NCBI RefSeq assembly: GCF_016919405.1
Contig: NZ_CP070352.1
Coordinates: 1,684,501-1,748,500 of the forward strand
DNA length: 64,000 nucleotides
DNA from: Ensifer sp. PDNC004
GTDB taxonomy: Bacteria > Pseudomonadota > Alphaproteobacteria > Rhizobiales > Rhizobiaceae
Direction: 5' to 3'
Part shown: piece after piece, positions 27,259-56,256 of the stretch
Layout: the number at the start of each line of letters is the position of its first letter
How positions within the stretch are numbered: position 1 is the stretch's first letter
Notes under the pieces: model-generated
The model's input: the letters and a program-made list of their open reading frames with translations, nothing else
Databases searched by the model: none
Told to the model about the DNA's origin: nothing
Made by a program: the position numbers and the translations under genes

Positions 27259-27303
27259 TCCGTACGATCGGCCGATGATGGCCGGAAGCCAAGGGACGAT
27301 CTT

Positions 27304-28278
27304 ATGACCAATATACTCGTTGTAGGTGGCGCAGGCTATATTGGCAGCCACGCCTGCAAAGCCCTGCATCGTGCGGGCTATACGCCAGTTGTTTATGACA
27401 ATCTGGTCTACGGCCATCGCGATGCCGTGAAATGGGGCCCGTTCGAGGAAGGCGACATTCTGGACGGCGACCGCGTCGATCAGGTGTTGAAGCAGTACAA
27501 GCCGGCTTGCGTCATGCATTTTGCGGCATTTGCCTATGTCGGCGAATCCGTCACGGACCCGGCTAAGTATTACGCCAACAACGTTTCGGGTTCCCTGTCT
27601 CTTCTCGACGCGATGCGTCGCAACGACGTCGGGAGCATCATCTTTTCCTCGACATGCGCGACCTACGGCGAAGTCAGCGAACTGCCGATTTCGGAACAAA
27701 CGCCGCAGAAACCTGTCAACCCCTACGGGTTTACCAAGCTGGCGGTCGAGCACGCGCTTCATGACTACGGGCGCGCGTATGGATTGAAGTGGGCTGCGAT
27801 GCGCTATTTCAACGCCGCCGGCTGCGATCCGGAGGGCGAGATTGGTGAGCGGCACGACCCAGAGACGCACGCAATTCCGCTCGCTGTTCTTGCTGCCATG
27901 GGTAAGGGCGAATTCAGCGTGTTCGGGACGGACTACGATACGGCCGACGGTACAGCGGTTCGCGATTATATACACGTATCGGATCTGGCTGAAGCGCATG
28001 TACTCGCCATCGACTATTTGGCAAAGGGCGGCGCGAGCGCTGCTTTCAATTTGGGGACGGGGCGGGGCACTTCCGTCAAGGAACTACTGACTGCTGTTGG
28101 CGATGCCGTGGGCTCGCCTGTGCCTGCCAAATTCGCGCCGCGAAGAGCGGGCGATCCGCCGATGCTTTACGCATCGGCGAGGCGCGCGCGGGATGTGCTC
28201 GGTTGGCAGCCTCGTTTCACCGAGATTGGTGCCATAGTCAAGACAGCGGCTGACTGGTTCGTGCGCCATCGGTCGTAA
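27304..28278 (+). CDS. UDP-sugar 4-epimerase (UDP-xylose or UDP-glucose 4-epimerase)
   Basis: The 324-residue protein has the GalE features G-G-A-G-Y-I-G-S (8-15), H-F-A-A-F-A-Y-V-G-E-S, S-S-T-C-A-T-Y-G and Tyr141-x-x-x-Lys145, plus R-Y-F-N-A-A-G-C-D and R-D-Y-I-H-V. It interconverts C4 epimers of a UDP-sugar with bound NAD. General annotation would be galE, but immediate linkage to uxs suggests UDP-xylose 4-epimerase (Uxe) making UDP-L-arabinose. UDP-galactose is also needed as the substrate for the glf product, so either role, or both, is possible. Confidence 0.85.
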   Translation: MTNILVVGGAGYIGSHACKALHRAGYTPVVYDNLVYGHRDAVKWGPFEEGDILDGDRVDQVLKQYKPACVMHFAAFAYVGESVTDPAKYYANNVSGSLSLLDAMRRNDVGSIIFSSTCATYGEVSELPISEQTPQKPVNPYGFTKLAVEHALHDYGRAYGLKWAAMRYFNAAGCDPEGEIGERHDPETHAIPLAVLAAMGKGEFSVFGTDYDTADGTAVRDYIHVSDLAEAHVLAIDYLAKGGASAAFNLGTGRGTSVKELLTAVGDAVGSPVPAKFAPRRAGDPPMLYASARRARDVLGWQPRFTEIGAIVKTAADWFVRHRS

Positions 28279-28698
28279 GAACTGTGCGTGCCGACAGTAT
28301 CGCATAGCTGTACTGAAAGGCGACAACTTCGGCGTGCCTGGCGCGGTAAAGCGTTTGTTTGCGGCGCGCATACCACTGATGCGAAATCGTGGAGGTCTTT
28401 TACTGCCCGCAGGTGTATCTAGCCGCGGATATATTTGAGGATGATCTTGCCGAGTCAGCTTTCAGCGGTTGACATTTGCGCTGTTGGTTAATAGGGCGTT
28501 GTCCGTATTACCCACGCTGCAATCGGAGCGTTGAATCGATGCGAGGACTTTGAGATTGAGTGCAACGATTAGTTGCTGTTGACGGCTAGCGTACGGCGAG
28601 AAAGATGCGTTTCGATGTCGATTTTCGCCCCTGTCAAAGTTGATATTAGGCGTTTTTATCGGTGGCGCTTCGGGCGCGAAAGCAATCAGGGAATTATT
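28279..28698. other. Region upstream of ugd
   Basis: About 420 bp with no convincing gene. A TTGACA at 28469 has no well-spaced -10 partner. The break suggests that ugd has its own promoter. Confidence 0.35.
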
Positions 28699-30015
28699 AT
28701 GAGTGTGAAAATTACGATGGTCGGCACCGGCTATGTCGGCCTTGTGAGCGGCGCCTGTTTTGCCGACCTCGGACACGACGTAATTTGCGTAGATAAGGAT
28801 GAGCGCAAGATTCGCATGTTGCTCGAAGGCAAGATGCCGATCTATGAACCTGGCCTGGACGAGTTGGTTCATCGCAACGTCGATGCAGGTCGTCTCCGCT
28901 TCAGCACCGACGTCGCGGCAAGCGTCAAAGACCGCGAAGCCGTATTCATCGCCGTTGGCACACCAACGGAAAACGGCTCCGACCGGGCCGACCTCAAATA
29001 TGTCTACGCTGCTGCCGGAGAGATTGCGCAGGCCGCAAATGGTTTCACCGTTGTGGTGACGAAGTCGACTGTGCCGGTCGGAACCAATGCGCAAGTCTTT
29101 GACATCAGCCAGAAGAACGTCGCTTCCGGTGCGCGAATCGCCGTCGCCTCAAATCCTGAGTTCCTGCGGGAAGGCGCCGCCATCAACGACTTCCTGGAAC
29201 CGGACAGAATTGTCGTGGGCGTCGAGGACGACGAAGCAAAGGCCGTTATGCGGCGGATCTACGCACCGTTGCTTCTGCACGGCAACGTACCGCTGCTGAT
29301 AACGGGCATTCAGACAGCCGAGCTTATCAAATACGCGGCGAACGCTTTTCTGGCGGTAAAGATCAGCTTTATCGACGAAATGGCTAACCTGTGTGAGGCT
29401 GTGGGCGGAAACGTCGAAGAGGTCGCGCGTGGCATCGGTCTGGACAAGCGAATCGGGCCGTCGTTCCTGAACACCGGCCCGGGTTGGGGCGGCTCCTGTT
29501 TCCCGAAGGATACTCGTGCGCTGCTGGCAACCGCCAATGATGCTGGCGTTCCCTCCCGTATCGTGACTTCGGCCGTCGACGCGAACAGCGCTCGCAAGAT
29601 TGCCATGGTCGATCGAATTGCCAAGGCGTGTGGGGGCGAGCTGCGTGGCAAACGCATCGCCGTGCTTGGTCTTACCTTTAAGGGGCAGACTGACGACATG
29701 CGTGAGAGCACCAGTCTTGTGGTGCTGCCGGAGCTTCTGCGGCGCGGTGCGCGACTGACGGCCTATGATCCGTCCAATCCGCATGAAGCACAGCACTACC
29801 TGCCGGAAGTCCAGATGGTGAAGACCGCCGAGGATGCGGCCGAAGGCGCTGACGCGCTCGTTGTGCTGACAGACTGGATGGTCTTCAAGACTTACGATCT
29901 GAAGGAACTGTCGAGCGTGATGGCCTCGCCGAACATGATTGACCTGCGCAACCTTTTCGATGAGGCGGAGGCGACCGCGGGCGGCTTCGTGAAATATTCG
30001 TCGCTCGGCCGCTGA
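28699..30015 (+). CDS. ugd: UDP-glucose 6-dehydrogenase
   Basis: The start after CAGGGAAT gives 438 residues. NAD motif M-V-G-T-G-Y-V-G-L (7-15), V-G-T-P-T (86-90), T-K-S-T-V-P-V-G-T, N-P-E-F-L-R-E-G-A, and the catalytic cysteine Cys267 in G-G-S-C-F-P-K-D are all present, with the C-terminal F-K-G-Q-T-D-D-M-R-E-S domain. The enzyme oxidises UDP-glucose twice to UDP-glucuronate, which is both a capsule precursor and the substrate of Uxs. The S. meliloti homologue is also called rkpK. Confidence 0.94.
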   Translation: MSVKITMVGTGYVGLVSGACFADLGHDVICVDKDERKIRMLLEGKMPIYEPGLDELVHRNVDAGRLRFSTDVAASVKDREAVFIAVGTPTENGSDRADLKYVYAAAGEIAQAANGFTVVVTKSTVPVGTNAQVFDISQKNVASGARIAVASNPEFLREGAAINDFLEPDRIVVGVEDDEAKAVMRRIYAPLLLHGNVPLLITGIQTAELIKYAANAFLAVKISFIDEMANLCEAVGGNVEEVARGIGLDKRIGPSFLNTGPGWGGSCFPKDTRALLATANDAGVPSRIVTSAVDANSARKIAMVDRIAKACGGELRGKRIAVLGLTFKGQTDDMRESTSLVVLPELLRRGARLTAYDPSNPHEAQHYLPEVQMVKTAEDAAEGADALVVLTDWMVFKTYDLKELSSVMASPNMIDLRNLFDEAEATAGGFVKYSSLGR

Positions 30016-30116
30016 TCAGTCTGCGCAGAAGACGAGAAGGAAAACGGTCGGATTTTGGTTGGAGCCGCAAGTCCCCGCCTACTTTGGCGGTGGCCGAGCT
30101 TGTAGGGAAGCTGTAG

Positions 30117-32210
30117 TTGCATCATTGCATTGTAACGCCGGATTTCATTGGCCCCATCAAGAACGGTGGGATCGGCACCCACTGCTACTGGCTGGCACGT
30201 GCGCTCGTGGCCAGTGGAAGGGCCGTCACGGTCCTTTTCACTGGCCCGGTCCAGGTTGAGGACGCGCCGCATTGGCAGAAGCACTACGCCGATCTGGGAA
30301 TAGAGTTCGTTCCTTTCCTTGAGGTGTGGCAGCGCAAATATCCGGTGCGGACGTTTCCGTTGCAGGAACGCAGCCTCAATATCTATCACTATCTTTGCAG
30401 AAGATCGTTCGACGCGATACATTTCCAAGACTGGCAAGGAAATGGCCTCCACACTGTGCGGGCGCGTCATGTCCTTGGGGAGTTTCTGGCCACCAGCTTG
30501 ACCGTGACGCTACACTCTAACACCCGGTGGATCGCGGAAGGCAATGGCCGATGGTACGGCGAGCCTCTCGCAGATGCGATGACTGCCTGGGCCGAGGCCT
30601 ATGTCGCGCAACATGTCGACTTCGTTTTCAGCCCTTCGCAGCATATGCTCGACTGGGTACGTCAGGCCGGATGGAAACTGGCTGGCTCGGCGGACGTCAT
30701 TCCATACACCTTAGGGGCAGTCTCGACGGCTGCGCCTATAGAGGCCGAGCCCGGTGTGCTGGCTTTCTTCGGGCGCTTGGAGACGCGAAAAGGGCTCGAA
30801 GTCTTCCTGAGGGCGCTTGGTCTGTTGTCGGAAAGCGACCGGCAAAAGGTCCGGAAGGTGTATTTCGTCGGCAAGAGTGGCCGGACTGCACTCGGCGAAG
30901 GCGCCAATCTGGTCGAGACCGAAATGCGAAAACTGGGTTTGCCTTTTGAACTCAAAGCGAGCCTAGACAGTGCGGGCGCCGTGAACTTTCTGAAGAAGGT
31001 TAGGGCAAGCGTATTCGCGCCCTCGCTTTCGGACAACTACCCGTTTTCGATTCTGGAGGCCGGTATCGCCGGGCTTCCGGTCTTTGCCTCCCGAGTTGGC
31101 GGTATTCCAGAAATATTGAATGCCTCCAATCTCTACGCCCCGATGCCTCGTGATCTCCGCGACACGCTCCGCGCTGTTTTGAATGGCGAAAGCAGGGGGC
31201 TGAGCCTTCTCTACGAGCCGGAAGCAGCCGCCGAAGGCTGGCGCCAGGCTATGGTTCGCTCCGAGGAACGCGCAGCAGAGCGCGCGCAACGTCCGAGCCA
31301 GCTATCAATTGCCTTGCCGCGGATTTCCATCTGCGTGCCTTATTTCAACTATGGTGCGTATCTCCCAAAGCTGCTTGAGAGCTTGCGCAGGTCGACCTAC
31401 CGCAATTTTGAGATCATCGTCGTCGATGATGGGAGCACGGATGAACGTTCCCGCCAGATTTTCGACGAACTCAAGTCCGCTCCGTCGGAGGGGCTCGAAT
31501 TGATCTTTAACAGGCACGGCAACTCCGGTGTTGGCGCGACTCGGAACTTCGCCGCATCGATGGCGACCGGCGATCTGTTAGTCTTCATGGATGCTGACAA
31601 TCTCGCCAAGCCTGAGATGCTCGCGACTTTCGTTGCGGCAATGGCGCGTTCGCAAGCGGATATCGTCACCTGCCACTTTGATGCCTTCAGACAGGACGAC
31701 GAACCGAGCGGGGAGCAGCATATTCATCACGTTTATGCACCAGCTGGTCCGGCAGTCGAAGTTGGATGGAGCGAGAACGTTTTCGGTGATGCAAATTTTT
31801 GCATTCGCCGAGAGATCTTTGATGCGCTTGGCGGGTTTGGCACCGAGCGGGACTCTTCGTGGGAGGATTGGGAGTTTCTGGCGCGCGCGGCGCTTGCCGA
31901 GTACTCCATCGAAGTCGTACCGCGCTCGCTGTTTTGGTATCGTTATACGGACGAGGGATTCAGCCGGAACACCAGTCCGTATAAGAATCAAAGACGCGTG
32001 CTAAGAGCCTATGAACAGGCGGTCGGCGGTGCGGCTGCGGCCTCTATCAATGTCATGCGTCAGGTCGCGCTTAGGTCGGATGGGGCCGTTGCTACACCTG
32101 CGGGGCGGATTGCGGGCCAGATCGCAGATAGAATCTACACCAAGCTGGGTTCGCCGAAAGGCAAGCTCGCGGTTCGCGCTGAGGCGTTCTTCAAGAAAAT
32201 CCTTAGATAA
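30117..32210 (+). CDS. Two-domain glycosyltransferase (GT4 plus GT2), first of a tandem pair
   Basis: The 697-residue protein starts at TTG after AGGGAAG. Residues 1-390 form a GT-B enzyme of the GT4 type: I-V-T-P-D-F-I-G-P-I-K-N-G-G-I-G-T-H near the start, F-F-G-R-L-E-T-R-K-G-L-E in the middle, and the E-x7-E-like S-I-L-E-A-G-I-A-G-L-P-V-F-A. Residues 400-650 form a GT-A enzyme of family 2: I-S-I-C-V-P-Y-F-N-Y-G, V-D-D-G-S-T-D, the metal-binding D-A-D near 491, and S-W-E-D-W. One polypeptide may therefore add two successive sugars. It is a paralogue of the next gene. No membrane segment is seen. Confidence 0.85.
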   Translation: MHHCIVTPDFIGPIKNGGIGTHCYWLARALVASGRAVTVLFTGPVQVEDAPHWQKHYADLGIEFVPFLEVWQRKYPVRTFPLQERSLNIYHYLCRRSFDAIHFQDWQGNGLHTVRARHVLGEFLATSLTVTLHSNTRWIAEGNGRWYGEPLADAMTAWAEAYVAQHVDFVFSPSQHMLDWVRQAGWKLAGSADVIPYTLGAVSTAAPIEAEPGVLAFFGRLETRKGLEVFLRALGLLSESDRQKVRKVYFVGKSGRTALGEGANLVETEMRKLGLPFELKASLDSAGAVNFLKKVRASVFAPSLSDNYPFSILEAGIAGLPVFASRVGGIPEILNASNLYAPMPRDLRDTLRAVLNGESRGLSLLYEPEAAAEGWRQAMVRSEERAAERAQRPSQLSIALPRISICVPYFNYGAYLPKLLESLRRSTYRNFEIIVVDDGSTDERSRQIFDELKSAPSEGLELIFNRHGNSGVGATRNFAASMATGDLLVFMDADNLAKPEMLATFVAAMARSQADIVTCHFDAFRQDDEPSGEQHIHHVYAPAGPAVEVGWSENVFGDANFCIRREIFDALGGFGTERDSSWEDWEFLARAALAEYSIEVVPRSLFWYRYTDEGFSRNTSPYKNQRRVLRAYEQAVGGAAAASINVMRQVALRSDGAVATPAGRIAGQIADRIYTKLGSPKGKLAVRAEAFFKKILR

Positions 32211-32236
32211 GGTTTGGAAGCTATTTGGAGCACATT

Positions 32237-34366
32237 ATGATACGCGAAAATAGTTTCACGCCGAGGCAAGTTTGCATCGTGACGCCAGATGTGATCGGTC
32301 CCATCAACAATGGTGGTATCGGCACACATGTTTATCATCTTGCTTTGGAGCTGGCGACGGTGCACAAAGTGACGATTGTCTTCACGGGACCAATCGAGCA
32401 CTTCAGCGCCACTCATTGGAGCGAGTTTTACAAGAAAAAATCGATAGAATTTGTTCATCTGAACGAGATGGTCGACGCCGATGTCGTGGCGCATACTGAT
32501 TGGTTCACGCGGCGCTCTTATGTCGTCTACCGCTTTCTGCGGGAACGCGACTTCGACTTCGTTCACTTCCAGGAATGGCAGGCCAATGGATTGCTTTGCA
32601 TCATGGCGAAGCGGTCGACGGAATATTTCCAGAAAACGACACTGACGGTCACGATGCACTCCAGTACGGAGTGGATCCATGAGGGGATGAACAAATGGGT
32701 GGAATGGCCACTGCCCGACGCCAAGCTTGAGTGGTGCGAGCGCTATTGCTGCGAGTTTGCGGACATCCTGATCAGCCCGTCCGATCATATGATCGCATAC
32801 TGCCGGGAGCGCAGATGGCAACTGGCAGACGACCTGCGGACGCTACGCTACTGCTTTGACCAGAAGCGATCGGAAGCACCCTATGAGCCGTTGCCGGGCG
32901 TCTTTGCCTTCTTCGGGCGCCTTGAGACGCGCAAGGGACTGGAGATCTTCCTGGGGGCGCTGGAGGCACTGGACTACGCCGAAAGGCAAAAGATCCGTAA
33001 GCTTATCTTCCTCGGCAAGAATGGCCAATTGACTGCCCGCGGGACAGATGGTGTTGCCGGCATCCGCGAAACATGCGGGAAACTGCACATCTCCTTCGAA
33101 ATTCGCACGGAACTCGACGCACACGCAGCCATAGATCACATTCGCGAGAGCCGGGCGACAGCCGTCATCCCCTCTCTGGTCGACAATTATCCGTTCACGA
33201 TCCTCGAAACGCACATGTTCGGGGTGCCGACCATTGCGGCGAGCAGCGGGGGCATTCCGGAGATGCTCGGCGATGACCGCTTGTTTGAGCCCACGGCGAA
33301 GGCCCTTTCGAGTAAGCTCAAAGAAGTCCTCGGCGGGGTCCTGCCGCAGTCGCAAGGCAAGTATGACCCGAAGGTTGCCGCCCAGACCTGGCAGGCCCTG
33401 CACCAGGAGCCGGTCAAGCTTGGCAAGCGCAAGGCGGCCGAGGTGGCCGTCCGGGAAGAAATGCCGCTCGTCAGCATTTGCGTGCCCTACTTCAACTATG
33501 GGCAATTCCTCGAGCAGACGGTTTTGACCCTGAAGCGCTCCACCTACAAGCGCTTCGAGGCGATCATTATCAACGACGGAAGCACCGACCAAGCTTCGGT
33601 CGACAAGTTTGAGGCGCTGCGCCAGAATCCGCCGGATGACCGCTTCATGTTCATCTCGAAGGAAAACGGCGGTATCGGTGCAGCCAGAAACTTTGCGGCA
33701 AGCCACGCCAAAGGCGAGTTCCTGATATTCTGCGACGCCGACAATTGCTCCACGCCGGAAATGATCGAGGAGTTTTTGATCGGGATCTACATGACCGGTG
33801 GCGACGTGGTCTCTTCGCACTTCAAGGCGTTCGACCAGGACGTTTTCTGGCCCGGGGACGATACGCGGATCCTCTACCGGTACATGCCGATCGGCCCGGC
33901 ACTTGAGGTCGGTATGCTCGCCAATGTCTTCGGCGACGCCAATAGCATCATGCGGAAGTCGGCGTTTGACACTGTTGGCGGTTTCCAAACCGAGCGGCAC
34001 ACCTCCTGGGAAGATTGGGATTTGCTCGCCCGCCTTTGCCTGGCGGGTCATCAGCTCGATGTCTGCCCAAAGGATCTCTTCTGGTATCGCCACACTGACG
34101 CCGGCTTCAGCCGCAACACAAGCGAATATCAGAACAACCTTCGGGTCTTGCGCGCTTATGCGGACTACGGCCCGGTCTACATGCGCCCTATGCTGAAGAA
34201 CGTTTTGATCCCCTACCACTTTGGCTTCGATCGCGAGCACCAGAAGGCGAACCGCTTCATGGCTCAGCTCAACAAGTATTTGATGAAGCCGATTGCCCAA
34301 CCGGTCGGACGCAAGCTTTTTTCGGCCGTGCGCGGCCTCGTCGCTTCCGGGTCGAAGCGCAAGTAA
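32237..34366 (+). CDS. Two-domain glycosyltransferase (GT4 plus GT2), second of a tandem pair
   Basis: The ATG at 32237 (GGAG seven bases upstream) gives 709 residues, 26 bp after the first paralogue. The same architecture is seen: C-I-V-T-P-D-V-I-G-P-I-N-N-G-G-I-G-T-H, F-F-G-R-L-E-T-R-K-G-L-E-I-F, S-L-V-D-N-Y-P-F-T-I-L-E for the GT4 half, and I-C-V-P-Y-F-N-Y-G, N-D-G-S-T-D, D-A-D (about 498), S-W-E-D-W-D for the GT2 half. The two paralogues share motif order and spacing throughout but differ enough to have distinct acceptors. Cytoplasmic; works on the nascent polysaccharide. Confidence 0.85.
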   Translation: MIRENSFTPRQVCIVTPDVIGPINNGGIGTHVYHLALELATVHKVTIVFTGPIEHFSATHWSEFYKKKSIEFVHLNEMVDADVVAHTDWFTRRSYVVYRFLRERDFDFVHFQEWQANGLLCIMAKRSTEYFQKTTLTVTMHSSTEWIHEGMNKWVEWPLPDAKLEWCERYCCEFADILISPSDHMIAYCRERRWQLADDLRTLRYCFDQKRSEAPYEPLPGVFAFFGRLETRKGLEIFLGALEALDYAERQKIRKLIFLGKNGQLTARGTDGVAGIRETCGKLHISFEIRTELDAHAAIDHIRESRATAVIPSLVDNYPFTILETHMFGVPTIAASSGGIPEMLGDDRLFEPTAKALSSKLKEVLGGVLPQSQGKYDPKVAAQTWQALHQEPVKLGKRKAAEVAVREEMPLVSICVPYFNYGQFLEQTVLTLKRSTYKRFEAIIINDGSTDQASVDKFEALRQNPPDDRFMFISKENGGIGAARNFAASHAKGEFLIFCDADNCSTPEMIEEFLIGIYMTGGDVVSSHFKAFDQDVFWPGDDTRILYRYMPIGPALEVGMLANVFGDANSIMRKSAFDTVGGFQTERHTSWEDWDLLARLCLAGHQLDVCPKDLFWYRHTDAGFSRNTSEYQNNLRVLRAYADYGPVYMRPMLKNVLIPYHFGFDREHQKANRFMAQLNKYLMKPIAQPVGRKLFSAVRGLVASGSKRK

Positions 34367-34388
34367 CAGATGAGAAGGTAAAAACGTC

Positions 34389-35516
34389 GTGAAGAAACAC
34401 TATGATTGGTTGATCGTCGGCGCTGGCTACACTGGCGCAATCATTGCCGAACGCTTGGCGACCCAGGCTGGGAAAACGGCTTTGGTGATCGACCGCCGCG
34501 ACCATATCGCCGGCAACGCCTATGATCGACGGAACGATGCCGGTGTGCTCTACCACCAGTACGGTCCTCACATATTTCACACCAACTCGCACGCCGTTGC
34601 CGACTATCTTTCCGCCTTCACCGAATGGCTTCCGTACGAGCACCGGGTTTTGGGCATGGTCGACGGCAGAATCATTCCTATCCCGTTCAACCTGACTTCT
34701 CTGGAAATCCTGTTCCCGAAGGCGGAAGCTGAGCGATTGGCAAAGATCCTGATCGAGGCCTACGGTATCGATCAGAAGGTGCCGATCCTGAAGATGCGGG
34801 AAAACCCGGTGCAGGGCGTTCGCGATCTCGCCGATTTCATCTACAAGAACGTCTTCTATGGCTATACGACAAAGCAATGGGGGCTCGAACCCGAGCAATT
34901 GTCCCCGTCCGTTACGGCCCGTGTTCCCGTGCACATTTCCTATGACGACCGCTACTTTCAGGACAGCTTCCAGAACATGCCCAAGGAGGGCTATACGAAG
35001 ATGTTCGAACGTATTCTGGCGCAGCAGGGAGTCAGCGTTTCGTTGAACACGGATCTCGCGGATCTCGGTAGCGAAGTCAGCTATGATCGGTTGCTTTATA
35101 CGGGAGCGATCGACGAGTATTTCGACTACGTCCTCGGCGAACTCCCGTATCGCTCGCTCGACTTTAACTTTCAGACCTATCGCCAGCAACGGCATCAGGC
35201 CGTTGGTCAGGTCAATTACCCCGTCAGCCATGACTTCACGCGCATTACGGAGATGGGGCATTTGACGCAGGAATGGTCCGACGTTACCACAGTGGCGATC
35301 GAATACCCTGTCGCTCACGTGCCCGGCAAGACGATACCGTACTACCCGATCCCGCGGGACGAGAATCAGGAGTTGCATAATCGTTACGTGGCCCTCGCGG
35401 AAAAGGACGCAGCCAACGTGTTATTTGCCGGTCGACTTGGGGATTATAGGTACTACAACATGGATCAAGCCGTCGGTCGAGCGCTGGCTTTGTTCAACAA
35501 GTCCATCGTCGCTTGA
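34389..35516 (+). CDS. glf: UDP-galactopyranose mutase
   Basis: The 375-residue flavoenzyme starts at GTG (GAAGGT upstream). It has the FAD motif L-I-V-G-A-G-Y-T-G-A (8-17), R-R-D-H-I-A-G-N-A-Y-D, Y-G-P-H-I-F-H-T-N, the W-L-P-Y-E-H-R segment, and the C-terminal G-R-L-G-D-Y-R-Y-Y-N-M-D-Q-A, all diagnostic for Glf. It converts UDP-galactopyranose to UDP-galactofuranose. Its presence implies Galf residues in the polymer, and it is a natural partner for the epimerase at 27304. Confidence 0.94.
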   Translation: MKKHYDWLIVGAGYTGAIIAERLATQAGKTALVIDRRDHIAGNAYDRRNDAGVLYHQYGPHIFHTNSHAVADYLSAFTEWLPYEHRVLGMVDGRIIPIPFNLTSLEILFPKAEAERLAKILIEAYGIDQKVPILKMRENPVQGVRDLADFIYKNVFYGYTTKQWGLEPEQLSPSVTARVPVHISYDDRYFQDSFQNMPKEGYTKMFERILAQQGVSVSLNTDLADLGSEVSYDRLLYTGAIDEYFDYVLGELPYRSLDFNFQTYRQQRHQAVGQVNYPVSHDFTRITEMGHLTQEWSDVTTVAIEYPVAHVPGKTIPYYPIPRDENQELHNRYVALAEKDAANVLFAGRLGDYRYYNMDQAVGRALALFNKSIVA

Positions 35517-39189: not shown

Positions 39190-39742
39190 ACAGGTTGCTG
39201 GTCACATAGCCGGCGGAAGTTCTACGAATTGCACGCGGCGAAGAGCTCGAAGGTCGCCACAGAGACGGTCGAGCGCATGGCGAGGCTCTGGGAAATCGAG
39301 GAAACCGTCCGCGGCCAAAGTCCCGAAGCTCGTGTCGTAGCGCGTCAGGAAAGTTCGGCGGTGATCGTCCGTGACCTCTTCACACCATGGCAGGCGACCC
39401 TGCCGCGGGTGTCGGGAAAATCCAAACTCGCCGAACCTCTCCGGTATGCCATATCGCGTCGCGACGTATTCGAGCGCTTCCTGACCGACGGCCGCATCGA
39501 GCTCGACTCCAACATCGTCGAGCGAGCTATCAGACCCCAGGCCATCACCAGGAAAAATAGCCTCTTCGCTGGTAGCGACGGCGGCGGCAGGACCTGGGCG
39601 ACGATCGCGACGCTCCTGCAGACAGCAAAAGATGAATGCCGTCGATCCGCAAGCCTGGCTTACCCAGACACTTGAGCGCCTCGCAAATGGATGGCCCATC
39701 AGCGATATTGACGCACTCATGCCGTGGAACTACGCCGCCTGA
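39190..39742 (+). pseudogene. IS66 transposase TnpC, C-terminal remnant
   Basis: The frame reads A-T-E-T-V-E-R-M-A-R-L-W-E-I-E-E-T-V-R-G-Q and continues to D-G-R-I-E-L-D-S-N-I-V-E-R-A-I-R-P and R-K-N-S-L-F-A-G-S-D-G-G-G-R-T-W, the end of the IS66 DDE domain. Near 39630 one base shift moves the last part (V-D-P-Q-A-W-L-T-Q-T-L-E-R-L, M-P-W-N-Y-A-A) to another frame. The N-terminal two thirds are missing. Confidence 0.8.
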
Positions 39743-39744
39743 AC

Positions 39745-39912
39745 GGCCCCAGCTTGTCGCTTACCATGAAGGCGGTTAGAGCGGCGATCGTCTCACCCTG
39801 GTTCAATGGGCAGACCGAAGGGCAGATAACCAAGCTCAAGCTGGTAAAACGCCAAATGTACGGACGCGGAAAACTCGATCTTCTTCAAGCCCGGCTGATC
39901 GGTGCAATATGA
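39745..39912 (+). pseudogene. ISL3-family transposase, C-terminal remnant
   Basis: The fragment V-S-P-W-F-N-G-Q-T-E-G-Q-I-T-K-L-K-L-V-K-R-Q-M-Y is typical of the ISL3/IS204 transposase end (W-S-N-G-x-x-E-G-x-x-N-x-x-K). Only about 55 residues are left, followed by a stop. Confidence 0.65.
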
Positions 39913-40075: not shown

Positions 40076-41887
40076 TCATCGAAAGGCTCCTTTCGCATGC
40101 CAGAAATAGTTGACGAAAACCTCGCTGAGCCCCCAAAGCTCATATGTGCTTATGATCGTTTCGTAGGAGAACGGGTCTTTACCGTGAACTGTGAGGCCGC
40201 TATTAAAGGAAACTAATGACGCAACAAGGTGATCGACGCCGGTTTCACGCGAATTTGCTGGCCACGCCACTGGCCTCATGCACCATCGACACTCAGCCGT
40301 TACCCCCAGCATTGCTTGGGCCGTATGCACCCCAAGAATATCAGCAAAACGTCGTTGGTAGTGCATGTAAGCCATACGCTTGCCGTTCCAATAGTGCACT
40401 CGATTTCTCCAGTCGTAGGCGATCGGAAGTGCACTCGCGGTACCGCCTACACCGTTGTGAGGGCCATAGGTGTGGACAACGAATGGAATGTATACATATT
40501 CAGAATTGTCTGGGCGCGCCCATGACAGCGGGTGTTCGTGAATGTGGAAGCAAAAAAACTTCTCCTCGTCCAAGTCTGTCAAAGATTCTACGGCATGCAA
40601 GTCCCACTCGGCCGTTTGCCTCGTCCTTGCAGTGATGCCAATCTCTCGGCTGAAACCGCTTGGATCTCTATCCAATCTGTCCAGATCGGACGCATATGCT
40701 GCCGCGAACGCACTGCTATCCCGTACGAAAACAAAGCACGTCGAAGAGGCATAGAACCCCTTGCCGTGGAAATCTGTCGCCAGTTTTCGTGGATCTTCAT
40801 TTAGAACAAGGTCGGCATCGATGTGCAGAAAGGGATGCCCCGACGCGTGTTCTGCGCAGACCAACCATCGCATGAGATTCTTGAAAAAGAAATCGCCGTC
40901 GTAGCTGCCGATGATCAACGGCTCATAATGTACCCAAAGATTCCGATAGCGTTCTACAAGCCCTTGGAACACTGAACTCTTATCGTGGACGTGGCAATCA
41001 AGCTCCCGCAGTTCTTCTATTACGCCGGAAAAGTGTTCAAACCCATCGATGACGAGAACATCAATACGACAGAACACCCCTTTGTTTCTCTGCGCCGCAG
41101 CCCGCTGCTTGAGCGCCAATTGGTGTTTGACGTACTCTGGAGATCGCGCCCAAACTACGGAGTAGACGTTCATGCTGGTAGCAACGCTGTCCTGCGACAC
41201 GCTCTCATCCAGTGAATATCCAAATCTGTCAAAGTCTTTCGAAAAAGCTGCGGCGATGTAGCTCGCGGTCGGCAGGTTACAAACGTTGCTAGCGTGGACG
41301 CGTTCCCAGGTGATGTTATCGAGTGGGATAATGCGCGTCTCGGCGCCGACATGCGCCATCATAGTGTCGAACCCGACTTGCAGTTGCTCCTGTCGAATTA
41401 CGTAATCAACGTCTTGAAGGTGCACCCAACTGACGGTTTGCCCATCAGGCGGCCAATACGCCCGCACAAACGCATCGAAGTTGTTGGTCGAGGCAAAACG
41501 GTACATTTCCAAATTCCGCCGGACCCACTCTTCTGTCGTTTCTTCGCCGTACCGTTTGTAACTGTCGATGGCGAAATAATAGTTGGACAGCAACCAACTG
41601 ACGGGATGGCGTGTGCCACCGACTATGTAGAGTTCGTCCACCTCTTCTTGCGAGAGGCACCCGGCTTGCACTAATTCCCTAACAGTCGAATGCTTCGTGT
41701 GACAGACCAGCTCACCTGACGCGGAATAGACATCGTGCTCTGGCAGCCACTCGCCTCCATAATGCTGAATAAGAACATTCGCTATCGCTGTGCAGCCCGT
41801 TTTGGGTACGCAGAGAAAAAGCAACTTCAGATCGCGGCAAATGACAGGCACAGGCTCCCCCAAAAATCTAGGAGAATCCCGTAGCAA
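40076..41887 (-). CDS. Sulfotransferase-like / glycosyltransferase-like fusion protein (603 aa)
   Basis: The N-terminal part (about 1-235) has the marks of a PAPS sulfotransferase: L-F-L-C-V-P-K-T-G-C-T-A-I (23-35, the 5'-phosphosulfate loop) and T-R-H-P-V-S-W-L-L-S-N-Y-Y (92-104, the 3'-phosphate motif with Arg and Ser). The C-terminal part (239-603) is a GT-A-like domain with H-I-D-A-D-L-V-L (D-A-D at 357-359) that is a paralogue of the gene at 44452: both share F-F-F-K-N-x-M-R-W, S-T-C-F-V, D-L-D-E-E-K and a late M-H-Y-Q. One protein may thus add and sulfate a sugar. The TTG start has no good ribosome site; a GTG twelve codons in is an alternative. Last gene of a minus-strand operon. Confidence 0.72.
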   Translation of the reverse strand: MLRDSPRFLGEPVPVICRDLKLLFLCVPKTGCTAIANVLIQHYGGEWLPEHDVYSASGELVCHTKHSTVRELVQAGCLSQEEVDELYIVGGTRHPVSWLLSNYYFAIDSYKRYGEETTEEWVRRNLEMYRFASTNNFDAFVRAYWPPDGQTVSWVHLQDVDYVIRQEQLQVGFDTMMAHVGAETRIIPLDNITWERVHASNVCNLPTASYIAAAFSKDFDRFGYSLDESVSQDSVATSMNVYSVVWARSPEYVKHQLALKQRAAAQRNKGVFCRIDVLVIDGFEHFSGVIEELRELDCHVHDKSSVFQGLVERYRNLWVHYEPLIIGSYDGDFFFKNLMRWLVCAEHASGHPFLHIDADLVLNEDPRKLATDFHGKGFYASSTCFVFVRDSSAFAAAYASDLDRLDRDPSGFSREIGITARTRQTAEWDLHAVESLTDLDEEKFFCFHIHEHPLSWARPDNSEYVYIPFVVHTYGPHNGVGGTASALPIAYDWRNRVHYWNGKRMAYMHYQRRFADILGVHTAQAMLGVTAECRWCMRPVAWPANSRETGVDHLVASLVSFNSGLTVHGKDPFSYETIISTYELWGLSEVFVNYFWHAKGAFR

Positions 41888-41962: not shown

Positions 41963-43438
41963 TCAATGCTCCACCTTGAGAATCGTAAGATCCTTGATAG
42001 CAACTGCCGTAAAATGCCTGGCCGGGACGGAAGGATCGCCCTCAACCCAGGCTTTAAGAACGTAACGTCCACGCGGAATGTTTAGTTTCAGCTGCTCATA
42101 CCGCATGTTTACTGGGACAACTCTACGCACGAACGCCACTAACTGGCCTTGCAGAGTTTCAACCGCGACGTTGACCGACACGTCGCAATTGCGCTCCTCT
42201 TGTTCGGTGAAGACAGTCCCGTAAAGCGCGGAGATCTCGGCCTGGACATCAAATTCGATACTCGCGACACAGGGTTCCCGATGATCGGCATAGACTGGAG
42301 ACCCAAGCACCAGATCTGTCCCTCTTACGGTTCCTGCATCCCAGCTCTCGCCTGGATATCGGTCTATAGAGAACTTGACACGGCCGGGGCGAGCTAGTGA
42401 AAGCGATGATCGGAGCGCATAGTCATCCGCACCTTCACTTTCGTGAAGGAGCTGTTGTTCCTGAAGAAAGCTACGGAAGGATACGTGATCCATGATTTCG
42501 CGACCGAAGAGATAGACGCTCATGAAGTTCGCCGGAATCCAGGAGTGGCGCGGCCCAAGGTTCCTAAGATCAATGTTGCGGCAAACCTGCTGCAATCGCG
42601 GAAGAAACTGACGCGCGAAATCTCGATCCTGAATCAGCGACTTCCTAGCCTTTATTGGGATGTAAACGGTCTCCAATACTTTGCGGAGCGACCACTCTTC
42701 GTCAAGTTCACTGCGCAGGCCAGCTTTAATGAGATGACTTTCAGCCACACGCAATGCGTGTTCTACTTCAAGGCCGAGAGTGCGGCCACCTGACAGTGAG
42801 CCTTCACGAACCCGATAATAGTAGTACGGGCTGGAAAGTGTCGTAATACGCTTAGAGGCAAGGAGCGTCTGCCATCGATAAGGAATATCTTCGCAATTTT
42901 CCTTAATGAACGAGATTCCGTTCTCCTCGATCAGCGATCTCCTGTACAGCTTATCCCAGATCGGAGTAGGGGTTGCGAAGACGTCACGGTTTTCTCGCCA
43001 CGAAAAGGCTTCGGTCGAATTTGCCAAAGAGGGCGGGAGGTGAACCAACCGGACCTCGGTGTCATTCTTCATCGCCTCAAAATAGGTGCCGATAACGATA
43101 TCGGCGTCGAAACGTTTGGCGCGCCGGAAAAGGCCATCAAGCATGCCCTTGTCGAACCAGTCGTCGCTGTCCACATGTTTGATGTATTCGCCCTTGGCGT
43201 ACTTCATGCCTTCATTGCGGGCAGAGCCAAGTCCGCCGTTCGTTTTGTGGTAGAGCGAGAAGCGACTGTCTGCTTGAGAAATCTCAGACGCAATCTGAGG
43301 CCCGTTGTCGGTTGAACCGTCGTTGATCATAATAACTTCGAAGCTGTCAAGAACTTGATCTTGCAGACTTTTTAGGCATTGCTCAAGAAATCCGCCCACA
43401 TTGTAAATTGGTACGATAACTGAAACGCTGGGGGTCAT
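41963..43438 (-). CDS. Family 2 glycosyltransferase with C-terminal accessory domain
   Basis: The 491-residue protein opens with the GT2 fold: V-S-V-I-V-P-I-Y-N-V-G, M-I-N-D-G-S-T-D, the D-S-D-D motif at 90-93, and I-W-D-K-L-Y-R-R-S-L acceptor region. Residues from about 360 on form a separate beta-rich segment (K-F-S-I-D-R-Y-P-G-E-S-W, G-R-Y-V-L-K-A-W-V-E-G-D) like the carbohydrate-binding tail of capsule/O-antigen proteins; this is inference from composition. It lies 75 bp upstream of the fusion gene and 11 bp after the DUF4422 gene in one transcript. Confidence 0.85.
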   Translation of the reverse strand: MTPSVSVIVPIYNVGGFLEQCLKSLQDQVLDSFEVIMINDGSTDNGPQIASEISQADSRFSLYHKTNGGLGSARNEGMKYAKGEYIKHVDSDDWFDKGMLDGLFRRAKRFDADIVIGTYFEAMKNDTEVRLVHLPPSLANSTEAFSWRENRDVFATPTPIWDKLYRRSLIEENGISFIKENCEDIPYRWQTLLASKRITTLSSPYYYYRVREGSLSGGRTLGLEVEHALRVAESHLIKAGLRSELDEEWSLRKVLETVYIPIKARKSLIQDRDFARQFLPRLQQVCRNIDLRNLGPRHSWIPANFMSVYLFGREIMDHVSFRSFLQEQQLLHESEGADDYALRSSLSLARPGRVKFSIDRYPGESWDAGTVRGTDLVLGSPVYADHREPCVASIEFDVQAEISALYGTVFTEQEERNCDVSVNVAVETLQGQLVAFVRRVVPVNMRYEQLKLNIPRGRYVLKAWVEGDPSVPARHFTAVAIKDLTILKVEH

Positions 43439-43449
43439 ATCGTTGAACC

Positions 43450-44283
43450 TTAAGAAACCATATAGTGCTCAGGGAGTTTCCCGAAAAGGCGCTGCTTTTC
43501 CAGAATATTACGCCCCTTTCTTCTTGAGATTTCGACGAAAATGTTGAAAATTCGCTCACCAAGAAAGCCGAAAATCCGCTGATTTCCATATTCTTTCAAA
43601 TATAGAGGGGAGGATAGATCGACGCGCTGCTCTACGTAAAATAGAATACTAAAAAGCCACTCCATGTATTCACGAAATACTTCTGCTCGCATTATGTACA
43701 TATGGCAGAAGTAGCCTTCTTTGCGCTGTATGGTCTCCTCCGCGACTTTTGAGTGTTCAGGATATAGCTTGGCTATCCCTTCAAGCGCCAGCTCGAGATC
43801 TCGGATATGGTGCAACGCATCGTAATGATTGTAAAGCGATGTAGCTTCCCGCCACTCCGGAGGGCGTAAGACGGTCTCTATGACGGGAGTTACGATATCA
43901 CTGCCATGAACTGAGTTATAAATACTATCCTTGTCCCAACCAAAACGCGCGATATTCTCCTCAGAAAAATCGTGGAAACTCTTTTCAGACCAATGCACAG
44001 ATTCTGGATATTGATCCGGGCCAAAGTTGAAAAATCTTCGATAGTGAAAAAAACCAACATACTTTGGTAATCGCGTATTCTTCCAAACCCAATACATGGG
44101 CGTGATCTCCGCGTAAAACGGATTTCGCGCCGAAATATTGTCCTTGGTATCGTCGCCCGAAATAGGAAGTCTATAATGAATTGCGCTTCCACCCTGAATC
44201 GCTTCAAAGTGGGGAAGCTCCGGAAAGACTTTTGCGTTATGGCTTACAATGTAAATCTTCAAGGGGTTTCTCATGAAACTCAT
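43450..44283 (-). CDS. DUF4422 capsular polysaccharide glycosyltransferase
   Basis: The 277-residue protein has the DUF4422 pattern: K-I-Y-I-V-S-H-N, I-Q-G-G-S-A, G-D-D-T-K-D-N-I-S-A-R-N-P-F-Y-A-E-I-T, Y-W-V-W-K-N and H-Y-R-R-F-F. The family is found in capsule and exopolysaccharide loci and is thought to transfer hexoses or galactofuranose. The gene is visibly richer in A+T than the metabolic genes to the left, pointing to transfer. It ends 11 bp before the GT2 gene. Confidence 0.82.
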   Translation of the reverse strand: MSFMRNPLKIYIVSHNAKVFPELPHFEAIQGGSAIHYRLPISGDDTKDNISARNPFYAEITPMYWVWKNTRLPKYVGFFHYRRFFNFGPDQYPESVHWSEKSFHDFSEENIARFGWDKDSIYNSVHGSDIVTPVIETVLRPPEWREATSLYNHYDALHHIRDLELALEGIAKLYPEHSKVAEETIQRKEGYFCHMYIMRAEVFREYMEWLFSILFYVEQRVDLSSPLYLKEYGNQRIFGFLGERIFNIFVEISRRKGRNILEKQRLFGKLPEHYMVS

Positions 44284-44451: not shown

Positions 44452-45552
44452 TCAGTCAGCAAACATCGAAGGGCTATGCCACCGTTCGCGTGAGAAGAGG
44501 AGCCCCATGCCGTACTGCTCACACTCGGTAATGATGTCGCGCATGTCCCAGTGGTTGACTTTCGTCCGATCGGGATTGTGCGATACATCGTGCAGCAGGC
44601 GAATGAATGCCGGGTATTTGGTATCTGGAAGCTCGCCGTTGAGGAAACGGTATACTTTATCCTTAGTCAGTAGATTGCGATAGACGTCATCATGCGCGGT
44701 CAGTTCCCGTAGGAGGCGATGGCATCCAATGACATAGTGCAGTTGTTCCTGGTAATGCATGAAGGCTAACGGATATTCGGAAAAGTAGTGAGTATCGTTG
44801 CTGAAGGAATATCGCACGCCGTCTCGGAACCTATGAAATTCAGACTCTAAATAGCGGCCCAGAGGTGGGTTGCCCCAGGCGTGAGCGATGAACGGCGGAC
44901 TTGCCAGTTCTGGGCGTTTGCCAGCCGGTATGCGATACAGGCCAGCGCTGTGTACCGCAAAGGCCGCGATTTTTTCTTCGTCAAGATCAAGGGTTGAATT
45001 GATCGAGGACAGGCCCCAATGACGGATATCGTGCTTTCGGGAGACGGCTTTGATATGCTCAAGACCAGCGACCGCGTCGGTGTTGAGGAGATCGACTATC
45101 GAAGTGTACGAATTCATGAAATCATCACTAATCTGAACGAAGCACGTGCTGTCCGGATAGTAAAAATCGCACCGAGAGCGCTCGAGGGCGTCCGTCGCAC
45201 CGGAATTGATAACGATATCGCCGTCAACGCTAAGTTTCTTGCCAGTTAAGAATTCATTCAAAACGAACCATCGCATGGTATTCTTGAAGAAAAACCCCCC
45301 GCGTGTATCGTGTGAGAATATCCTTCTTATTCCGACGTATTTTTTTTCCAAATCGGAGAAGAATGGTTCGCAATCTATAATTTCGTACCCGAATCGTCCT
45401 GCGCTTGTTTGCTTGAAAAGCTCATAGCCGTGGAGACAGAGGAGTTTTATTTTAAAGCCGCGCCTGTGATGCACTCGTGCGATATTATCGATCGCAAGTC
45501 TTGCTGATATATATTTTAGATCGTCGGCCCAAACTACAACGCCAATGTCCAA
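44452..45552 (-). CDS. Glycosyltransferase-like protein with DxD motif (366 aa)
   Basis: The protein starts at TTG with GGGAGA upstream. It has I-G-V-V-V-W-A-D near the N terminus, F-F-F-K-N-T-M-R-W (87-95), L-S-V-D-G-D-I-V-I (D-G-D at 110-112, a likely metal site), S-T-C-F-V, L-D-L-D-E-E-K and A-F-M-H-Y-Q. The same series occurs in the C-terminal part of the sulfotransferase fusion at 40076. The fold is probably GT-A like. I know no named family for it. First gene of the minus-strand operon; A+T-rich. Confidence 0.7.
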   Translation of the reverse strand: MDIGVVVWADDLKYISARLAIDNIARVHHRRGFKIKLLCLHGYELFKQTSAGRFGYEIIDCEPFFSDLEKKYVGIRRIFSHDTRGGFFFKNTMRWFVLNEFLTGKKLSVDGDIVINSGATDALERSRCDFYYPDSTCFVQISDDFMNSYTSIVDLLNTDAVAGLEHIKAVSRKHDIRHWGLSSINSTLDLDEEKIAAFAVHSAGLYRIPAGKRPELASPPFIAHAWGNPPLGRYLESEFHRFRDGVRYSFSNDTHYFSEYPLAFMHYQEQLHYVIGCHRLLRELTAHDDVYRNLLTKDKVYRFLNGELPDTKYPAFIRLLHDVSHNPDRTKVNHWDMRDIITECEQYGMGLLFSRERWHSPSMFAD

Positions 45553-52182: not shown

Positions 52183-53016
52183 TTAGTTCAGCTTGCCTCG
52201 AAGGAAGCGCTCCAAGCTAAACCCAATCACCAGCAATGCAAGGATAACTCCAATTAGGTAGCGCTTGTCCAAAAGCCCCTCGTGGTAGGTTTCGTAATAG
52301 CCCGATCGCACCCACTCAACACAATGGGCGAGAGGATTGAAGTAGATTATTTCGGATACTATAGGTGGCATTTGGCTTGGCAAAAAAAGCGCCCCAGAAC
52401 TGATATACAGACCAACAGCTGTCAGCACACAAGCCTGCAGCCAGTTTGTAACGAGTCGCGAAATAATCGCGTTGGGTAGGCAGAAAGCGAGGCTGAACAA
52501 CATTGTCATGCCAATCCCGCTGAGTGTTTTGATTGGGTTTTTCGGAACAATGTCGGCTCCGAACGCGAAAAGTGCCAAAGCTAATACGGTGATCACGATC
52601 AATGAGTTTACTATTTCAAGTAAGGCGCGAGAAATGACTAAGTCAATTGGATTTACCCGAGGGAATACTAATAGTGGGCGGTTGTCGTCGATCGCTAGAA
52701 TGTTTGAGCGTACGGGGTAGAGAAACAGCATAAAGGGTAAGATGCCAGATGCGTAAAAGACCATCTTATCCGTCCCCAGAAGTGCTGATCGCCCCATCGC
52801 ACTGTAGAAAGCAGCAAGTGTTAAAAGGTGAAATAGCGGCATACCGATAACACGTAGGTAGCTCCAAGCCGAGCCCATCATTCGAGCTCTGACATCGCGC
52901 AAGATGAGTGCTCCCAGAATACCCGCGTAGGAACGCGCATTTGCCTGAAAGGTTGCGAACTTAATGCGAACCGTATGCCGAAAATGAACCCGTGGCCGAC
53001 TCTCAACGCTTTTCAT
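52183..53016 (-). CDS. kpsM: Capsule/polysaccharide ABC transporter permease (KpsM/Wzm-like)
   Basis: The 277-residue protein has the ABC-2 polysaccharide exporter pattern: an N-terminal amphipathic region (L-R-D-V-R-A-R-M-M-G-S-A-W-S-Y-L), six hydrophobic segments, and a late F-N-P-L-A-H-C-V-E-W-V-R-S-G-Y-Y, typical of KpsM. It would export a lipid-linked capsular polysaccharide with the KpsT-like ATPase at 54065. Its start overlaps the preceding unknown gene by 14 bp, so the two are coupled. The gene is A+T-rich compared with the left half of the window. Confidence 0.88.
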   Translation of the reverse strand: MKSVESRPRVHFRHTVRIKFATFQANARSYAGILGALILRDVRARMMGSAWSYLRVIGMPLFHLLTLAAFYSAMGRSALLGTDKMVFYASGILPFMLFLYPVRSNILAIDDNRPLLVFPRVNPIDLVISRALLEIVNSLIVITVLALALFAFGADIVPKNPIKTLSGIGMTMLFSLAFCLPNAIISRLVTNWLQACVLTAVGLYISSGALFLPSQMPPIVSEIIYFNPLAHCVEWVRSGYYETYHEGLLDKRYLIGVILALLVIGFSLERFLRGKLN

Positions 53017-54058
53017 GGCTATCCGCCTTGTCTATCGATCGCTCAATGTAGTCATACAGTCGGACGTCGTTTCTTAGTAGCTTTCGTACAGTGGCGGAGC
53101 GCCGCAACGCCGCTTCAAGCTCGGACGCCGCCGCAAGGGTCAAAATAGAGACGTCACTCAAATTCAATGTTGGCATCACTGGCGAGAGCGCGCGTTTGAA
53201 AAGTTCGAAGCGTGACCCGATACCTACCACCGAGAATGCGGAAAGATTGCCCAATGCGATAGGCACATGCCGCGGTTCTGGTTCCTCGTTCGGATCGCAC
53301 GCTAAGCCTCGGGTTACCGGATCGCGGATTGCAGTTCGTTGTGCCTGGCTGAGGTCTGCAAATACGGTACTTATATCGTTCGTGGAGAATTCTCTCAGGT
53401 TCTCTACGCACTCAAGCAACGACGAGTAATGCGGTGGCAGGGCTTTGACACCGTTGGCGCCGTGCTTTGAATCCAATATTGTTTTGACGACCAACAATCT
53501 GTTTGCGAGTTCTGTGAATGGTTCGACGATGAGAGCTGCGACGCAGTAGTCAAGCGCTATAAGCTTGCGGTAGTGTGTCGCAAGAGCTAGCCTTCCTTCG
53601 GAAAAAATTGACCCAATTGCGTCATTTCCGAGCAGCGCAAGCGCAGAGTCTATACCAAGCTCGTCTATTGATAGATAGCTGACTAAGAATTGATCGCCTA
53701 GCTTGCGCTTGAAAAGACGCGAAGGCACAGGCAGGTTGTTGTAAATCAGAAGTTTTCCAGTTTTGTATTCCGTGCTTTCTGATCGCCGGTAAATAATCCT
53801 CTGATTTGCTAGCTCTGTAATCTTGAGATCATAACTGGACGAAAAGCCTGGGACGTTTCGGTCATCGAAGCGAAAGCCCACCAGTCCCGTTTCGTGGAGT
53901 CTAGCGTCTACGAGATCCGGCCTATATACGTTGGCTTCGAGTACAACGGCGTTTATGCCATTAGTTTCGATACGAAACTTTGGGACAACTGTAGGATTGT
54001 CAGGCGTCAGCCATCCGTCCACGAAATCCGGTGTCGCGTAATCAATGTGAAAATACAT
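53003..54058 (-). CDS. Unknown protein encoded between kpsT and kpsM (351 aa)
   Basis: The protein has no signal peptide or membrane segment. The first 100 residues look beta-rich (Y-F-H-I-D-Y-A-T-P-D-F-V-D-G-W, V-V-L-E-A-N-V-Y-R-P-D-L-V-D-A, G-L-V-G-F-R-F-D-D); the rest is mostly helical, with a late S-V-V-G-I-G-S-R-F-E-L-F-K-R-A-L segment that resembles a small nucleotide- or phosphate-handling module. I recognise no family. It lies 6 bp after kpsT and overlaps kpsM by 14 bp, so it is probably part of the export machine or of polymer modification linked to export. Confidence 0.75.
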   Translation of the reverse strand: MYFHIDYATPDFVDGWLTPDNPTVVPKFRIETNGINAVVLEANVYRPDLVDARLHETGLVGFRFDDRNVPGFSSSYDLKITELANQRIIYRRSESTEYKTGKLLIYNNLPVPSRLFKRKLGDQFLVSYLSIDELGIDSALALLGNDAIGSIFSEGRLALATHYRKLIALDYCVAALIVEPFTELANRLLVVKTILDSKHGANGVKALPPHYSSLLECVENLREFSTNDISTVFADLSQAQRTAIRDPVTRGLACDPNEEPEPRHVPIALGNLSAFSVVGIGSRFELFKRALSPVMPTLNLSDVSILTLAAASELEAALRRSATVRKLLRNDVRLYDYIERSIDKADSHEKR

Positions 54059-54064
54059 ATTCGG

Positions 54065-54721
54065 CTACCTGTTGAGAATGCGGTAAAACTCAATCGCTTC
54101 ACCCACATCATCGTACAGGCTCAGCCTCCCGTTCTCTAAGACAAGACAACGATCGCAGTAGTCGCGGATCGTTGCCATGTCATGTGAGATCATTATGAGA
54201 TCTGAAGTTTTCCTCCGCTTATCAAACTCGTTCCTGCAACGCTTTTGAAATCGAGCGTCGCCGACCGCGAGGACCTCATCAATAAGATAGCACTCAAAAT
54301 CGATAGACATTGATAAACCAAACGCGATCCGCTGCATCATGCCGGAGGAGTACGTCCGGACTGGTGCATCCATATAGGCTCCTATCTCGGAAAAGTCTTG
54401 GACAAAGTCGATTACTTCACGCGGTGAGTGATTGTAGATGCGTGAAACAAAGGCGACGTTTTCTCGACCGGTCATCTCGGGGTGCAGGCTGCCGGCAAAC
54501 CCGAGGGGCCAGGAAACGTTGCAGTGCCGGCGAACGCGTCCGGCGTTTGGAAGCTCGGTGCCTGATATCAGCCGCATAAGCGTCGATTTACCGGCGCCGT
54601 TGATGCCAAGGATGCCGTAACTGTAGCCGCGCTCGAATGACAGGTTGACGTGATCGAGGATGATCTTGGTCGTTGCCGGCGTCTTGTAAAACTTGAAGAC
54701 GTTATGAAATGTTACCATCAA
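54065..54721 (-). CDS. kpsT: Capsule/polysaccharide ABC transporter ATPase (KpsT/Wzt-like)
   Basis: The 218-residue ATPase has Walker A G-I-N-G-A-G-K-S (39-46), signature Y-S-S-G-M-M-Q-R, Walker B C-Y-L-I-D-E-V-L-A-V-G-D and the H-loop M-I-S-H-D-M. The length and W-P-L-G-F-A-G-S-L-H-P-E-M-T-G-R-E-N motif are typical of KpsT. It lacks the C-terminal carbohydrate-binding domain of Wzt, so export is not tied to a specific terminal cap recognised by this protein. First gene of the kpsT-unknown-kpsM unit. Confidence 0.92.
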   Translation of the reverse strand: MMVTFHNVFKFYKTPATTKIILDHVNLSFERGYSYGILGINGAGKSTLMRLISGTELPNAGRVRRHCNVSWPLGFAGSLHPEMTGRENVAFVSRIYNHSPREVIDFVQDFSEIGAYMDAPVRTYSSGMMQRIAFGLSMSIDFECYLIDEVLAVGDARFQKRCRNEFDKRRKTSDLIMISHDMATIRDYCDRCLVLENGRLSLYDDVGEAIEFYRILNR

Positions 54722-56246: not shown

Positions 56247-56256
56247 GGCGAGGGAT

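Follow-up and report, generated by a model that had tools for sequence, protein, structure and literature searches.

The heparan sulfate 2-O- and 6-O-sulfotransferases are single catalytic units, and the way in which sulfate is directed to specific residues of a bacterial capsule is poorly known. NodH and KpsS are rhizobial sulfotransferases that serve other glycans (as given in an excerpt of PMC11625862). A tailoring enzyme and a glycosyltransferase (GT) in one protein are already known from Mimivirus L142, in which an N-acetyltransferase that acetylates an amino sugar is joined to a putative GT (PMC10117803, also an excerpt); multi-domain sulfotransferases are known too. Here we describe a gene of the rhizobial soil bacterium Ensifer sp. 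PDNC004 in which a sulfotransferase-like domain is followed, in a single open frame, by a GT-like domain. It lies in a 64,000-nt stretch of contig NZ_CP070352.1 (positions 1,684,501 to 1,748,500; hereafter the window), on the minus strand at 40076-41851, and encodes from a GTG start a protein of 591 amino acids (catalogued as P0001; residue numbers refer to this form). We consider it moderately probable that this fusion is a capsule-synthesis enzyme with two active sites, which transfers a hexose and sulfates the added residue or its neighbour. This reading builds on the family to which the N-terminal half belongs by sequence, on fold prediction and motif conservation, on the position among capsule genes and on the presence of a gene for making the sulfate donor 3'-phosphoadenosine 5'-phosphosulfate (PAPS).

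The Sulfotransfer_2 profile (PF03567) matched residues 3-150 of the fusion with 27 bits (cut-off 22, E = 6.2e-6), and the match spanned only profile positions 4-140 of 252, suggesting that the C-terminal part of the sulfotransferase domain is divergent. Both motifs named in the original prediction, PKTGCT and R-x-P-x-x-W-L-x-S-N, are present, the latter as R81-H-P-V-S-W-L-L-S89-N, and the above-threshold PF03567 score together with the predicted fold of this half indicates that they are more than chance resemblances. The loop lysine, K17, to which we assign the role described in an excerpt of PMC11625862, was common to three of four aligned sulfotransferase relatives, as was S89, and R81 was common to all four. 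The RHPVSWLLS stretch was also the part matched in six weak PDB profile matches, all of them to sulfotransferases (E = 0.54-0.92). H54 is a candidate for the catalytic base, a role suggested by the placement of the base in HS2ST and HS6ST. Because joint alignments of all rows misplaced the sulfotransferase tails, the halves of the protein were modelled apart; the full-length model is unreliable for the N-terminal half and was not used for statements about it. Folding of that half as a sulfotransferase had been set beforehand as a point on which the assignment would turn; the predicted model of residues 1-226 matched only sulfotransferases among 50 listed PDB entries (VIA-align), the top match being a heparan sulfate 6-O-sulfotransferase structure.

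The C-terminal half (residues 227-591) is predicted to adopt a GT-A fold nearest to GT24 and GT8 enzymes, with high model confidence in part of the domain only and 7-12% identity to GT8/GT24 structures in structural alignments. A Pfam search with this half alone named no family at E up to 10, a range in which HMMER filters discard most matches above E ~0.1; for the whole protein, PF03567 was the sole Pfam match and there was no NCBIfam match. Residues R328-W329, D345, D347, S370-T371, E429-E430, H497 and Q499 were invariant in all eight aligned GT-domain sequences, and H497 may be a ligand of the metal, as in GT8. The DxD domain had been called a paralogue of the gene at 44452, and the paralogy is real but old: aligned with the 44452-45552 product, this half shows 84 identities in 295 columns (28%, E = 2e-28).

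Relatives of the GT-like domain were few: nine sequences were found in all, counting the two of the host. With an alignment of the domain (A2) as query, the genus search returned the host itself and none of the 15 other genus genomes (1/16), and one further genome each was found in the family (2/394, own and G612) and in the order (2/397, own and G1250); these and the other genome searches score only the best candidates from a loose first pass in each genome. The same query confirmed one of 42 pattern matches among GTDB contigs (L007), none of 49 among viral contigs, and four proteins in the protein set (P0003-P0006, the window's own among them). One of these, P0004, is a 68% relative of the stand-alone paralogue and carries the source label Ensifer sp. 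2YAB10; a search for P0003 on plasmids gave no match. This unnamed family, with its clear invariant residues, lies outside the Pfam and NCBIfam copies searched.

The description of the gene as encoding one protein with both domains is borne out by one open frame and by support for each domain assignment. The longest frame, 40076-41887 on the minus strand, has 603 codons counted from its first TTG, and the catalogued GTG is its residue 13; a GGAG lies 3 nt 5' of this GTG, a rather short spacing that leaves some doubt about the precise start codon. In the whole-genome search the frame was free of internal stops, making the two domains one continuous frame, and frame 1 of the plus strand at this locus contained several stops. 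Before the internal Met227, the best ribosome-site-like stretch (AGGA) is 16 nt distant, so the second half is unlikely to be translated on its own. The G+C fractions of the two halves are alike (0.53 and 0.52).

The fusion appears to be confined to its host. When the full-length protein was searched against 5.8 billion proteins, only the fusion itself and one other protein, P0002, scored among the best 7995 candidates (those with most shared words); as a single-sequence query against GTDB contigs it gave 14 pattern matches and no confirmed relative, and tblastn on plasmids found none. Matches to the full-length query occurred in 4/398 genomes of the phylum (own and three) and in 2/101 genomes of relatives (own and one), and the four foreign matches all fell within the sulfotransferase half and belonged to frames that stand alone. 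When only the sulfotransferase half was searched, 2/385 genomes of the class matched, the own genome and one already known, and the protein set yielded nothing at E <= 0.01 (90 candidates). The search proposed beforehand for other proteins with this domain order found none in proteins, GTDB contigs, plasmids, or phylum and relative genomes. The earlier statement that no enzyme of this order had been described agrees with searches of the open-licence literature (in the spelling with 'f'), in which no sulfotransferase-GT fusion showed among the titles and abstract openings listed, though such an absence carries little weight. To judge from these searches, the fusion is seen in the host genome only, and the combination of sulfotransferase and GT would be new, provided that both domains function.

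Joining a GT-like domain of this kind to a tailoring enzyme probably has a second instance. In P0002 and in L007, a locus of a Verrucomicrobia metagenome-assembled genome (6411-8801, plus strand), a distant relative of the GT-like domain, itself without a Pfam match, is joined to an S-adenosylmethionine-dependent methyltransferase. The two proteins are 70% identical over 776 residues, which implies that they are maintained as fusions; by sequence, the GT-like domain has probably been paired with tailoring enzymes twice and kept so in one case.

Sulfotransferase domains with other long partners also exist, so that having several domains does not by itself set this sulfotransferase apart. PF03567 was matched in 45/299 phylum genomes, own included, and out of the frames listed we examined all 13 foreign ones of at least 371 amino acids. 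In five (L053, L055, L056, L057 and L059) the PF03567 match lies in the second half, behind what by eye is another sulfotransferase-like part; in L053, the only one of the five scanned, Pfam named nothing in the first part. L060 seemingly has two sulfotransferase parts, with scores below cut-offs, L058 combines TPR with a sulfotransferase, and four (L054, L061, L062 and L063) seem by eye to be normal genes whose frame extends upstream into untranslated sequence. The remaining two, from the same class as the host (L051:2320-4335, plus strand; L052:1223-3853, minus strand), have a sulfotransferase followed by a C-terminal part that is GT-A-like by eye only, and for these parts we found no Pfam match at a meaningful level, no NCBIfam match, no notable PDB sequence and no match to the GT profiles. 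Should they be GTs, this domain order would have originated repeatedly, each time with a GT of different descent. The PDB entries among the matches included sulfotransferase domains of the curacin pathway and of an olefin synthase, as well as N-deacetylase-N-sulfotransferase 1. Separately, the stand-alone PF03567 protein L004:1441-2205 (minus strand) scored above the cut-off without the PAPS-loop lysine and the helix serine, and adjoins what by eye is a polysaccharide-flippase-like gene.

The capsule setting claimed in the original prediction stands, as export genes of KpsM and KpsE type, genes for nucleotide sugars and further GTs lie in the window (Table 1). On the export-gene side there are, in addition, rfbA-like and dehydratase-type sugar-nucleotide genes, and a single PF05159 capsule-synthesis match was found on another contig of the host genome. 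The fusion is the sole PF03567 match of the genome at E <= 0.001. As to PAPS supply, the adenosine 5'-phosphosulfate (APS) kinase of the cluster may, from its GLSGARKS motif, be impaired, weak or dead; a 629-aa protein read as CysN/C, with an APS kinase domain and a normal P-loop, is encoded on the same contig ~33 kb beyond the window and is followed by a gene read as cysQ. Its gene content suggests that the host can probably make PAPS.

Table 1. Coordinates of the fusion gene, its parts and the surrounding features, numbered within the window.
Feature	Position	Strand	Basis or remark
Fusion protein coding sequence, 591 aa	40076..41851	-	GTG start; longest frame to 41887
Sulfotransferase domain, residues 1-213 (up to conserved FGYS)	41213..41851	-	
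PAPS 5'-phosphosulfate loop PKTGCT (P16-K17-T18-G19-C20-T21), lysine K17	41789..41806	-	Sequence
Candidate catalytic base H54	41690..41692	-	Invariant in 5/5 aligned sulfotransferases (alignment A6)
3'-phosphate site R81...S89 (RHPVSWLLS, then N)	41585..41611	-	Sequence and alignment A6
Linker, residues 214-226	41174..41212	-	13 codons past FGYS, no homopolymer of at least 3
GT-A-like domain, residues 227-591	40076..41173	-	Starts at Met aligned with paralogue start
DxD motif D345-A-D347	40811..40819	-	Both Asp invariant in 8/8 aligned GT-domain sequences
H497 of MHYQ, candidate third metal ligand	40361..40363	-	Invariant in 8/8 rows
Stand-alone paralogue of GT-like half, 366 aa (P0003)	44452..45552	-	
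GT2-family glycosyltransferase, upstream of fusion	41963..43438	-	PF00535, E = 6e-33
DUF4422 protein	43450..44283	-	PF14393, E = 4.8e-57
APS kinase in capsule cluster, ~14 kb from fusion	25326..26009	+	Walker A GLSGARKS, R replaces last glycine
Nucleotide-sugar and GT genes	26314..35516	+	NAD-dependent epimerase/dehydratase, GalE, nucleotide-sugar dehydrogenase, two GT4+GT2 double glycosyltransferases, UDP-galactopyranose mutase
Capsule export genes	52183..57543	KpsM-type permease and ABC ATPase (-), two KpsE-type (+)	KpsM and KpsE matches below NCBIfam cut-offs
Stretch matching IS66 transposases of rhizobial plasmids, beside fusion 3' end	39193..39765	+	86-88% identity

Several neighbouring genes have features of their own. 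The GT2 protein upstream of the fusion has a long C-terminal part past residue 147 without a Pfam match; the double glycosyltransferases (30117-32210 and 32225-34366) are tandem proteins, each with a GT4-type and a GT2 part, whose GT2 parts are 51% identical in alignment; and the two KpsE-type proteins also stand in tandem (54948-57543). Between the capsule ABC permease and ATPase lies a gene (53003-54058) for a 351-aa protein that, under the thresholds applied, matched nothing in Pfam or NCBIfam.

Insertion sequence (IS) material flanks the fusion, since transposase sequences, of the IS66 type and others, occur to either side of it. The four-gene block 40076-45552 (5.5 kb) had no DNA match in 72,556 plasmid records. 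Another part of the window, 5.6 kb long, was 92.1-92.7% identical to six E. adhaerens records (1.68-1.79 Mb) and 83% identical to a seventh (2.78 Mb); judged by sequence, the host is close to Ensifer adhaerens. The lack of a plasmid match for the block, together with the adjoining IS66-like sequence, suggests that it is probably strain-specific and acquired.

Several observations weigh against a two-domain enzyme working as a unit. The first Met of the GT half sits exactly at the paralogue start, the sulfotransferase half reaches FGYS, at or close to the point at which three of four aligned stand-alone relatives (L003, L005 and L006) stop, only 13 residues separate the halves, and a +1-frame TGA overlaps the internal ATG (ATGA), the pattern expected of coupled genes before fusion. 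No homologue with the same fusion was found, and one contig only carries it, with no second copy. These points would fit a natural but incidental fusion, in which a sulfotransferase gene and a GT gene, neighbours in an operon, became one through loss of the intervening stop while their products went on acting separately on different residues of the same capsule. An ATG followed by A is, however, frequent by chance, and the occurrence of a distant relative of the GT-like domain in fusion with another tailoring enzyme hints that there is some reason for such a union; we regard an incidental fusion as unlikely, though worth serious attention. The single contig, along with the stops that both alternative frames have near the junction, would also be expected if two genes had become joined in this one sequence by a mutation private to it or by a mistake in sequencing or assembly; the original prediction had itself raised the danger of a sequencing error. 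Such an artefact we find very improbable: DFDRFGYS and the GT start share one frame, 13 codons apart, and no homopolymer of at least 3 lies between them, which makes the common type of sequencing slip unlikely there, and the genome is assembled in 3 contigs with 99.99% completeness. The junction itself argues against error, but no independent copy was found.

The surroundings raise the question of whether the gene is decaying in an IS-battered island, one or both halves being inactive. The transposase sequences on both sides, the altered P-loop of the APS kinase, the non-ATG starts of both the fusion and the 44452 gene, and the block's lack of plasmid matches are all in keeping with decay, but the frame is open over its full length, the PAPS-site and DxD motifs are intact and the CysN/C-type protein has a normal P-loop, and we hold decay to be decidedly improbable. 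The sulfotransferase half might instead act on another surface glycan (lipopolysaccharide or a glycolipid) and not on the capsule repeat, as NodH and KpsS serve other glycans in rhizobia (PMC11625862, excerpt); with the gene inside a capsule cluster and its product fused to a GT-like domain, this is scarcely credible.

If the fusion is a two-active-site capsule enzyme, its C-terminal GT-A domain (similar to the retaining GT8/GT24 enzymes), with a divalent metal held by the DxD motif, would extend the growing chain by a hexose taken from a UDP-sugar, and its N-terminal PAPS sulfotransferase domain, using K17, R81/S89 and probably H54 as the base, would sulfate a hydroxyl of the added residue or its neighbour. 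Joining the domains would keep sulfation beside the freshly made linkage. Addition and sulfation had earlier been proposed to occur in one step, a proposal that we abandon, as separate folds with separate active sites imply two reactions. We infer that both halves are active, and likewise which sugar is donated, what accepts it, in what order the events occur and whether there is channelling; we hypothesize that the residue sulfated may be the same one that the GT half adds. The strongest indirect support for a coupling of sugar transfer and sulfation comes from P0002 and L007, in which a distant relative of the GT-like domain shares one protein with a methyltransferase. A broader and more doubtful possibility is that an unnamed GT-A family has been welded repeatedly to tailoring enzymes, a PAPS sulfotransferase in the fusion and an S-adenosylmethionine-dependent methyltransferase in Verrucomicrobia. 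A single protein would then yield the sulfated or methylated residue, which would tie sulfation residue by residue to chain growth and not to the finished polymer. If the proposed coupling is true, a sulfotransferase is fixed to a GT that may make its acceptor, so that sulfation can be co-synthetic, and the fusion would offer a way into the production of defined sulfated polysaccharides.

The fusion can be set beside known systems from either end. With PF03567 enzymes such as the heparan sulfate 2-O- and 6-O-sulfotransferases it shares the PAPS loop, the 3'-phosphate site and the predicted fold, and it differs from them in the extra GT-A-like domain that follows the sulfotransferase domain. 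That domain is near in fold to the retaining GT-A families GT8 and GT24 (LgtC, glycogenin, xyloside xylosyltransferase, UGGT), yet matches no family profile. Its distant relative in P0002 and L007 (32-33% identity in the best segment) is likewise joined to a tailoring enzyme, there a C-terminal methyltransferase, whereas in the fusion the partner is an N-terminal sulfotransferase. KpsS of Mesorhizobium loti, as described in an excerpt of PMC11625862, is likewise a rhizobial polysaccharide sulfotransferase, a likeness by description only. Mimivirus L142, again by description, resembles the fusion in having a tailoring domain ahead of a putative GT domain.
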